Assembly (NCBI GenBank): GCA_026702755.1
Contig: JAPPBX010000019.1
Location: forward strand, 1 to 36,890
Reading direction: 5' to 3'
Length of the DNA: 36,890 bases
Origin: Candidatus Poribacteria bacterium
GTDB taxonomy: Bacteria; Poribacteria; WGA-4E; WGA-3G
The notes beneath the pieces were generated by a model. The model did no database searches, had not been told where the DNA came from, and was given only the letters and a program-made list of their open reading frames with translations. Position numbers and translations under genes: made by a program. Each line of letters opens with the position of its first letter. Position 1 is the first letter of the stretch. Positions 17,104 to 18,686 of this stretch are shown here, piece after piece.

Positions 17104-17487
17104 TTAGTTTTCTTCCTCCGTTTGAATAAGTGGTAAAGGCGCGCATTCTGGACAAGGACATGTCTCACGCAGGACTTCAAATGGATAGATGCCGGTAGCG
17201 TGTCCATCATTCCAACTGAATTGGAGTGCGTAGCGACCAACTAACTGGACATCGAGGGGTTGGATATCGTCCGAGACCTCAATCAGTGTTACGTCTCCGT
17301 CGCCTTGCGGTGCAAAAAGAGAATGGACATCCCGACCTTTATGCCGGATGATGGCGCATTCGGCACACGGACACATTTGTCGGAGATAGGTGTATGGATA
17401 CCAACTGACATGCCCGTCTTTCCATTCAATTTGGAAGGCGGTGTCATGTTTCTTGAGGAGTTTTGGACTTTTTTCAACTATTGTCAT
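17104..17487 (-). CDS. DUF971 (GBBH-like N-terminal) protein
   Basis: A 127-residue stand-alone DUF971 protein. The family fold, shared with the N-terminus of gamma-butyrobetaine hydroxylase and with Mrp/ApbC-associated proteins, is built from two related halves: IEWKDGHVSWYPYTYLRQ and FSWNDGHATGIYPFEVLRE. Each half ends in a CxCxxC motif (CPCAEC, Cys39/41/44; CPCPEC, Cys110/112/115). Many family members keep only one such cluster, so the second one may create a second metal or Fe-S site. In this operon a role as an Fe-S carrier or client adaptor is likely but inferred. It ends three bases before the rhodanese start. Confidence 0.9.
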   Translation of the reverse strand: MTIVEKSPKLLKKHDTAFQIEWKDGHVSWYPYTYLRQMCPCAECAIIRHKGRDVHSLFAPQGDGDVTLIEVSDDIQPLDVQLVGRYALQFSWNDGHATGIYPFEVLRETCPCPECAPLPLIQTEEEN

Positions 17488-17588: not shown

Positions 17589-17945
17589 TTATAGTATTTT
17601 CAAAAGAACACTGATTCTTTGTAAAACAGCATCTACAGTCTCCGTATGTAAGGAACAAATATACTCTGCGTTTCTTGCTCGCCAATCCATAGTCCGAATC
17701 TGATCTGGAAGAATAAACCCGTTTACTTCTAACCCTTCAGGAATCGCAATTGCAAATGGATTTCTCTGTTGTCTTGTACTACTTCGAGTAATTGGACAGA
17801 GTACAACCAAACTGGTTTTATCGTTAAAATCTTTGGTAGTTAAAACAACAGCAGGGCGACGACCAGCTTGTTCATGTCCAGCTTGAGGATTGAAGTCAAT
17901 CCACACCACATCTCCGCGTAGTGGAACGTTTGTTAATCCTACCAT
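17589..17945 (-). CDS. mazF: MazF/PemK-family endoribonuclease toxin
   Basis: A 118-residue type II toxin that cuts mRNA in a sequence-specific way. Family hallmarks are RGDVVWIDFNPQAGHEQAGRRPAVVLT at 10-36, with the conserved Arg and the loop that contacts substrate and antitoxin. CPITRSS (50-56), LPDQIRTMDW (79-88) and the C-terminal helix also fit. The length is standard. Its ATG lies inside the last codons of the preceding gene (overlap of seven bases), the classical antitoxin-first arrangement with coupled translation. It sits inside the SUF island between the SufT-type and DUF971 genes, all on one strand. Confidence 0.93.
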   Translation of the reverse strand: MVGLTNVPLRGDVVWIDFNPQAGHEQAGRRPAVVLTTKDFNDKTSLVVLCPITRSSTRQQRNPFAIAIPEGLEVNGFILPDQIRTMDWRARNAEYICSLHTETVDAVLQRISVLLKIL

Positions 17946-18325
17946 ACCTCATTACCGACCGGCGGGTCAGTGTCTATCTCATCATGTGAACTGTTTTCTT
18001 TCACCTGGTCTAGTAGATCTTTCAGTGTATAGTCGGGGCGTTTCAACGGATAACTCCCTTTTTCCGTTCGCGGGGGACCAAATGGAGCAGCTTTTGCTTT
18101 ATTGCTATTTGCGTTATCCTCCGATATTTGTGCCAATAGGTCCTCTAACGTATAGTCCGGACGTTTTATAGAATCGCTCCCTTTTTCGTTACGAGGCGGT
18201 CCAAACTCACTTACTTTTTTTTCTGCTGGTGCCTGATCTGTCTGTTCACGGTTAATGAACTGTTGATAACCGAGGAATGCTATCACGATCAGACATTCAG
18301 TGAAAGTAAACGTTTTTTTTGACAT
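17939..18325 (-). CDS. Atypical MazE-like antitoxin: hydrophobic N-terminus plus duplicated toxin-binding tail
   Basis: A 128-residue protein overlapping mazF by seven bases. AAGGAGA five bases upstream fixes the ATG at 18325. The C-terminus (YTLKDLL ... EIDTDPPVGNEVW) matches the toxin-binding tail of MazE/PemI antitoxins. That tail segment occurs twice: residues 41-71 and 82-112 share FGPPRxEKGS and KRPDYTLxDLLxQ. The AbrB/SpoVT DNA-binding domain expected at the N-terminus is absent. Instead residues 3-19 (KKTFTFTECLIVIAFLG) are hydrophobic and resemble a type IV prepilin N-terminus, with Phe at +1 and Glu at +5 but Thr instead of Gly before the cut site. It is probably the MazF neutraliser, possibly membrane-tethered and unable to autoregulate. 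The function is inferred from position and tail. Confidence 0.8.
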   Translation of the reverse strand: MSKKTFTFTECLIVIAFLGYQQFINREQTDQAPAEKKVSEFGPPRNEKGSDSIKRPDYTLEDLLAQISEDNANSNKAKAAPFGPPRTEKGSYPLKRPDYTLKDLLDQVKENSSHDEIDTDPPVGNEVW

Positions 18326-18386
18326 AATATTCTCCTTATATGTGTGCCTACAAAGCACATCTATTGGAGATTGGCTGATAACCTAC

Positions 18387-18686
18387 TTAAAAGATACCGA
18401 GTTCGTCCCTTGCGTCTTCAGTCATCATTTCGGGGGTCCAACGCGGGTTCCACACTACATTAACATTGACTTCGTCAACGCCGTCGAGTTGCTGTGTAAC
18501 GTGCTGGGTGCCGTTGACAATCTGTCCACCAGCAGGACACCCTGGACTCGTTAAGGTCATGGTAATATCCACAGTCGTGTCGTTGATATCCACGCCGTAG
18601 ATAAGCCCCATATCAACGATGTTGATGCCAATTTCCGGGTCAATAATTTCTTTAATAGATTCCAATACAGATTCTTCTGTTACCAT
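18387..18686 (-). CDS. sufT: SufT/MIP18-family (DUF59) Fe-S assembly protein
   Basis: A 99-residue MIP18/PaaD-like protein, the family of SufT that helps mature Fe-S proteins. The DPEIG motif is at 16-20, NIVDMGLIYGV at 22-32, and LTSPGCPAGG carries the conserved Cys50. The C-terminal VVWNPRWTPEMMTEDARDELG is typical. GGAGGAAA precedes the ATG. It follows the Rieske gene within the SUF island. The symbol is assigned by family and context; other DUF59 proteins such as PaaD act in different complexes. Confidence 0.92.
   Translation of the reverse strand: MVTEESVLESIKEIIDPEIGINIVDMGLIYGVDINDTTVDITMTLTSPGCPAGGQIVNGTQHVTQQLDGVDEVNVNVVWNPRWTPEMMTEDARDELGIF

Follow-up and report, generated by a model that had tools for sequence, protein, structure and literature searches.

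One of the questions raised by this locus is how MazF, an RNA-cutting toxin, is neutralised by a partner in which no DNA-binding domain can be recognised and a candidate toxin-binding helix occurs twice. MazEF is the textbook example of a single autoregulatory circuit that links dimerisation of the antitoxin to its binding of DNA and of toxin. The window analysed here, a 36,890-nt stretch of DNA from a Candidatus Poribacteria bacterium, carries two co-oriented genes, an antitoxin gene and mazF, whose features are collected in Table 1. On sequence evidence, a type II mazEF-like module is the most suitable reading of the pair.

Table 1. Features of the antitoxin-mazF locus, in positions of the window
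Feature	Positions	Strand	Extent	Basis or remark
Downstream neighbour, DUF971-like gene	17104..17487	-		right edge of insertion site
mazF toxin gene	17589..17945	-	118 aa	PemK_toxin match
Antitoxin gene, lacking a DNA-binding domain, with MazE tail	17939..18325	-	128 aa	ORF and ribosome-binding site; same-locus orthologs
Site-I-like tail	17942..17986	-	residues 114-128 (HDEIDTDPPVGNEVW)	aligned to MazE 68-82; present once only
Site-II-like helix, copy 2	17987..18028	-	residues 100-113	aligned to E. coli MazE 54-67
Repeat copy 2	18002..18082	-	residues 82-108 (FGPPRTEKGSYPLKRPDYTLKDLLDQV)	self-alignment
Site-II-like helix, copy 1	18110..18151	-	residues 59-72 (TLEDLLAQISEDNA)	matches copy 2, and so MazE 54-67
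Repeat copy 1	18125..18205	-	residues 41-67 (FGPPRNEKGSDSIKRPDYTLEDLLAQI)	self-alignment, shift 41
N-terminal hydrophobic helix	18257..18301	-	residues 9-23 (TECLIVIAFLGYQQF)	AF2 helix 8-31
Shine-Dalgarno AAGGAG of antitoxin	18332..18337	-		6 nt ahead of ATG; position kept in orthologs
Upstream neighbour, DUF59/SufT-like gene	18387..18686	-		left edge of insertion site; present in all orthologs

Re-reading of the open reading frames bore out an earlier note on this DNA, which had described a gene overlapping mazF. The overlap is 7 nt, with the mazF start region lying over the antitoxin stop, and the order of the two genes is kept in orthologs. The start codon of the antitoxin gene is ATG, and 61 nt separate the module from the DUF59 gene. 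All examined orthologs occupy one locus, in the order SufU, Rieske, DUF59, antitoxin, mazF, DUF971, rhodanese. DUF59 adjoins DUF971 in 25 of 30 genus loci, the two genes lying 113-413 nt apart without a TA motif between them, while in the rest the gap is occupied, four times by an antitoxin-mazF module and once by a HicB-like gene. As these occupancy counts indicate, the module is patchy at a fixed insertion site, and a pseudogene remnant of it persists at the same DUF59-DUF971 locus in G013. The HicB-like gene stands alone at the site in L167, and a HicB-like ORF lies between DUF59 and the antitoxin in four orthologs (L051, L052, L055 and L056), so the gap appears to hold TA genes recurrently. 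The full length of the antitoxin is common to orthologs at this locus, N-terminus included, which disposes of an assembly join as the origin of that N-terminus, a possibility that the earlier note had allowed for.

On sequence grounds the toxin is certainly a MazF, in agreement with the earlier identification. Pfam PemK_toxin (PF02452) matches it at E = 2.4e-29 (102.2 bits, against a cut-off of 23.1), and MazF chains in the PDB match it with E values down to 3e-26. Its residues E25, R30 and T53, which presumably correspond to the catalytic E24, R29 and T52 of E. coli MazF, are invariant in 5 orthologs, and both genes are intact in the window.

No accepted family match was found for the antitoxin in searches of Pfam, NCBIfam, PADLOC and PHROGs. 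Pfam matches to GIDA_C_1st and OTU1_UBXL fell below the cut-off and were judged spurious, and PHROGs gave weak matches only, all to the tail. Its residues 95-128 match the final 34 positions of E. coli MazE (49-82; profile E = 0.0096), the alignment partners for helix copy 2 being the E. coli MazE chains 1mvf_D and 1ub4_C; the NCBIfam MazE model gives E = 0.0085, and annotated plasmid MazE tails match the same residues at 44-50% identity. The MazE-type C-terminus that had been claimed for this protein is real, though short. The AbrB/MazE_antitoxin domain PF04014 was not found in the antitoxin at E<=10, and the same library detects that domain at 4e-13 in an order-level relative belonging to another family. 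Nor does an intact AbrB domain lie in another frame or in a missed gene upstream, since the upstream gene is DUF59, the Shine-Dalgarno sequence is conserved, and no AbrB-like ORF occurs between them. The best explanation of these comparisons is that the antitoxin derives from the toxin-binding tail of a MazE and would have lost the AbrB domain that serves DNA binding and dimerisation.

Upstream of the tail the protein is repetitive. Self-alignment gives a score of 126 at a shift of 41, whereas none of 500 shuffles scored above 48. The two copies proposed earlier thus stand far above chance, although the repeat unit consists of some 27 similar residues and is not a clean block of 31. In an alignment to E. 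coli MazE, through which alone the site numbering is transferred to this protein, the site-II-like helix is present twice and the site-I-like tail once. The copies differ in a fixed way across all orthologs of the window's group (group A), copy 1 reading TLEDLLAQ and copy 2 TLKDLLDQ. A low-confidence AF2 model (six input sequences, mean pLDDT 62, pTM 0.20) contains three helices only, at 8-31, 60-70 and 101-110, the rest being unstructured; it includes no AbrB-like sheet or other beta fold and so agrees, together with the missing PF04014, with the claim that an AbrB-type fold is absent.

Seven orthologs were compared, as non-independent pairs and over short regions, and dN/dS came to 0.04 both in helix copy 1 (residues 54-67) and in copy 2 (95-108). 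Tail residues 109-128 gave 0.09. The FGPPR segment gave 0.22 in copy 1 and 0.12 in copy 2, the hydrophobic N-terminal stretch 0.26, and the linkers 0.40-0.48. Within the helices, silent sites are free to change (pS 0.57 and 0.66 in the same seven orthologs), so a constraint on RNA is unlikely. Invariant alignment columns make up 12/14 of helix 1 and 11/14 of helix 2, and 2/14 of the linker between. Purifying selection acts with equal strength on the two helix copies and, because selection keeps both, a model with two toxin contacts per antitoxin chain is well supported. Within the window gene, copies 1 and 2 differ by pS 0.95 and pN 0.28; this saturation of silent sites indicates that the duplication is old and that both helices have been kept, and it rules out a recent slippage duplication in this gene.

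The same figures bear on whether the module is simply decaying or non-functional, its duplication having arisen in a degenerating antitoxin. Elsewhere mazF is truncated or missing beside an intact antitoxin (L010:1474-1893, L036, L037, L038, L042 and L047), and the G013 pseudogene lies at the very locus of the window module. Nevertheless, with both window genes intact, the MazF catalytic residues invariant and dN/dS far below 1 in the binding parts of the antitoxin, decay is scarcely credible.

A structural framework for the two helices comes from E. coli. The MazE tail covers one MazF dimer, with the 54-67 helix in site II and residues 68-82 extended in site I (PMC12557383), and a MazE 54-67 peptide alone inhibits MazF while 68-82 does not (PMC12557383). 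The MazF dimer has two symmetric site-II pockets, both of which are filled by SamF (PMC12557383), a helix-type peptide that binds E. coli MazF with a KD of 2.5 uM (PMC12557383); native MazE places one tail on each MazF dimer and uses one site-II pocket (PMC12557383). The presence of the helix twice, taken with the two site-II pockets of each MazF dimer, favours a clamp. We consider it reasonably probable that the antitoxin is a MazE derivative lacking the DNA-binding domain (DBD-less), each chain of which would use its two site-II helices and its single site-I tail to clamp one MazF dimer. Residues 59-72 and 100-113 would each fold as a short amphipathic helix filling MazF site II, and residues 114-128 would form the single extended site-I tail. 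Helix 2 and the tail would occupy one edge of the dimer, as E. coli MazE does, and helix 1, carried on a linker of about 30 residues, would occupy the symmetry-equivalent edge, which is not used by ordinary MazE. One chain would then block both MazF active sites, and this would make good the avidity that went with the AbrB dimer. Binding of helix 1 to MazF is something we infer, as is the choice of a clamp on one dimer over a bridge between two.

The earlier note suggested that each chain may bind two toxin units. Two contacts are supported by selection, but only the helix is duplicated and not the whole tail, which makes one chain holding one MazF dimer at both edges at least as likely. Were the two helices of one chain to bind two MazF dimers instead, they would neutralise four monomers or build chains, in imitation of the MazF2-MazE2-MazF2 hexamer and without an AbrB dimer. 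Classic MazE dimers bring two tails to two MazF dimers, the tandem pair would restore two tails, and a 30-residue linker is long enough to reach a second dimer. However, the unduplicated site-I tail would leave that second dimer with half of the contacts, and micromolar binding of the kind measured for the SamF helix peptide is weak unless the helix is tethered on the same dimer. Such bridging seems to us unlikely.

Copy 1 has no site-I tail of its own and is fixedly unlike copy 2, and it may therefore have another partner. On this account helix 1 would serve a different MazF-like toxin, a protease or an adaptor, and helix 2 with the tail would bind the adjacent MazF. The constancy of the copy 1/copy 2 differences in all group A orthologs is consistent with such a division of labour, as is the finding that other duplicated antitoxins adjoin other MazF lineages. 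Yet G000 contains only two other MazF-like loci, one of them weak and the other a fragment that contains a stop, and it is copy 1 rather than copy 2 that lies nearer to the helix of the sister-family AbrB-MazE proteins (DDLLAQ). Moreover, groups C, D, E and K have homogenised or re-duplicated copies, a pattern compatible with a ligand common to both. A separate partner for helix 1 is thus quite improbable. As for the clamp itself, single-helix DBD-less relatives pair with intact MazF (L016, for example), and some members can therefore do without a second helix.

The N-terminus, which reads KTFTFTECLIVIAFLG and is common to the same-locus orthologs, had been likened to that of a type IV prepilin and taken as a sign of membrane tethering. 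Glu10 is present as claimed. Homologs sharing a hydrophobic N-terminus do exist, with the motif E-C-L-[IV]-x-IA[YF] conserved in groups A-D, and the hydrophobic stretch is under the moderate constraint given above; its Kyte-Doolittle 19-mer value, 1.43 in the window antitoxin, rises as high as 1.77 in group D. But Gly at -1 and the prepilin motif are absent from every DBD-less member inspected (the Glu of group C falls at position 5 of the complete protein), the hydrophobic run spans about 10-13 residues, where a type IV prepilin has about 20 after its Glu at +5, with charged or polar residues inside or adjoining the run, AF2 gives a plain helix (pLDDT about 84 for residues 11-20), and groups F-K include duplicated members that lack a hydrophobic N-terminus altogether. 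The prepilin comparison was rejected on these grounds, membrane tethering is unsupported, and an antitoxin of either kind is very improbable. Self-association and membrane contact are both possible roles for the N-terminal helix.

Searches of species-level genome contigs found no relatives of the antitoxin outside Candidatus Poribacteria MAGs. Within the related genomes, 45 of 60 hold antitoxin relatives at E <= 1, some matching weakly, and PF02452 occurs in 37 of 38 genus genomes. The DBD-less antitoxins upstream of MazF in the fetched loci fall into about ten block types, most of which hold two-copy members and several of which also hold one-copy members; L016 and L047 thus share a block type with L007 and L011 and differ from them in copy number, as L038 does from L008. 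When 44 MazF domains were counted, with duplicates removed and a partner of known type, the MazE-tail partners were duplicated and DBD-less in 21 cases, single-tailed and DBD-less in 14 and of AbrB type in 9. A sister family supplies 4 or 5 of these 9 AbrB partners (L188, and four whose MazF falls in the same clade), and the tally for the genus is 21 duplicated and 14 single-tail DBD-less antitoxins against 5 AbrB partners. The duplicated DBD-less architecture is common in this Poribacteria genus, and so more general than the window alone.

The internal repeat is largely a property of these antitoxins. It is strong in 36 of 680 ORFs of 90-200 aa from all fetched loci, a set chosen for holding MazF or antitoxins, in which neighbours were compared, and not a random genome sample; 33 of the 36 are MazF antitoxins, with a period of 40-43 residues in nearly all. 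On the MazF tree, a single 100/100 group takes in the toxins with DBD-less partners together with four whose partner is a sister-family AbrB protein, and the toxins with other AbrB partners fall outside it. Duplication mapped on this tree needs 7 changes, of which at least 4 are forced by well-supported branches, and no duplication was found among the sister-family antitoxins that were read. The simplest history would have the tail of an AbrB-MazE lose its DNA-binding domain in the genus and then gain or lose a second helix repeatedly. At silent sites, groups C, D, E and K show less divergence between the two copies of a single gene than between copy 1 of one gene and copy 2 of another, pointing to gene conversion or re-duplication; slippage or gene conversion may be acting there. 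Group A has no such closeness between copies of one gene. Spread by plasmids or phages was considered and rejected, given that nearly all plasmid matches cover the MazE tail only, viral contigs gave no match to the antitoxin, and PADLOC gave none either.

Several antitoxins in the fetched loci depart from the common plan. Group K (L048-L050 and L142-L146) carries an RGLEGAYDDDEPEYTLDML block in two copies 40-41 residues apart, or one copy in L142, and has no MazE tail. Its blocks are unlike those of other groups, its period and its one/two-copy variation are the same, and its genes stand directly before a conserved, divergent MazF-like protein of 113 aa. Hybrid antitoxins at L087 and L080 begin as another type of MazF antitoxin (MITISKELRQAI...WDDPEMDVYND) and continue into one group E tail block (RRIPEEAYSPAKFGKSTHTLDDLLAQVTEDNL). 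L019:1009-1797 and L107 encode antitoxins of 261-262 aa, with a long N-terminal region and a tail helix repeated at period 35, that adjoin an open frame of 235 codons holding a MazF domain. Group G (L020, L026, L039 and L072) consists of 79-aa single-tail antitoxins whose N-terminus resembles a shortened, degenerate first block copy (shift 37). A helicase-like ORF at L029:1-1590 has a MazE-type tail (MKLNELLDQVTEYNTHDEIDTGSPVGREEL) at its end and is not followed by a MazF.

The missing AbrB domain also supports the claim that expression of this module must be controlled differently from that of a textbook mazE operon. An antitoxin without a DNA-binding domain would not repress its own operon. 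No conserved separate repressor gene stands beside the locus, where the window neighbours are the DUF59 and DUF971 genes and the HicB-like gene found upstream in some orthologs is absent in others. Since the antitoxin has no DNA-binding domain and no repressor gene is conserved beside it, we do not expect autorepression of the classical kind, and autoregulation is probably absent. Expression might come from transcription of the module's own or from upstream, in the suf region; a promoter and terminator scan of the locus stayed near chance level, with no promoter standing out. Toxin output would depend on translational coupling of mazF to the antitoxin through the overlapping start.

A broader proposal, for which we would claim somewhat less than for the clamp at this locus, is that Poribacteria have evolved a distinct form of MazF neutralisation. 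DBD-less antitoxins might clamp both edges of one dimer with two tethered site-II helices, an arrangement reached or renewed repeatedly at 40-43-residue spacing, also in group K where the MazE tail is lacking, and replacing AbrB dimerisation together with conditional-cooperativity autoregulation. We found no description of a duplicated-helix or DBD-less MazF antitoxin, or of a Poribacteria MazE, in the open-access literature. A whole bacterial genus appears to run MazF with DBD-less antitoxins, the inhibitory helix often being doubled. Work published in 2025 showed two site-II pockets on each MazF dimer, with MazE occupying only one (PMC12557383), and together these observations give a clear, testable prediction, that one chain blocks both active sites. 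The changes between one and two helices among otherwise similar antitoxins offer a natural series in which the gain from a second contact could be measured.

The closest known systems share parts of this design. With E. coli MazE-MazF (1UB4) and Kis-Kid, the window module has in common a PemK/MazF toxin, a bicistronic arrangement with overlap, and a 34-residue C-terminus resembling MazE 49-82, site-II helix and site-I tail together. Unlike E. coli MazE and Kis, the window antitoxin has no AbrB/SpoVT domain, carries the site-II helix twice with a 41-residue period, and has a short hydrophobic N-terminal helix instead. Nearer relatives are the AbrB-MazE proteins of the sister family (L023, L027, L028 and L181), which partner MazF of the same well-supported clade and whose tail (KLDDLLAQVTEHNLHDEVDTGPAVGGEV) is very close to that of the window antitoxin, although they differ from it in retaining PF04014 (4e-13), in having a single tail and in their length of 79-80 aa. 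Type II antitoxins without a DNA-binding domain have been described in paaR2-paaA2-parE2 (PaaA2) and omega-epsilon-zeta (epsilon) (PMC5086665), where the operons are controlled by the separate repressor genes PaaR and omega (PMC5086665). PaaA2 is a flexible monomer and DBD-less like the window antitoxin, but PaaA2 and epsilon act on different toxins, and their separate repressor gene has no conserved counterpart at this locus. Finally, SamF demonstrates that two site-II helices per MazF dimer suffice to inhibit it, a situation that tethering of two helices would reproduce; SamF is synthetic and unlinked, whereas the window antitoxin may tether both helices naturally.
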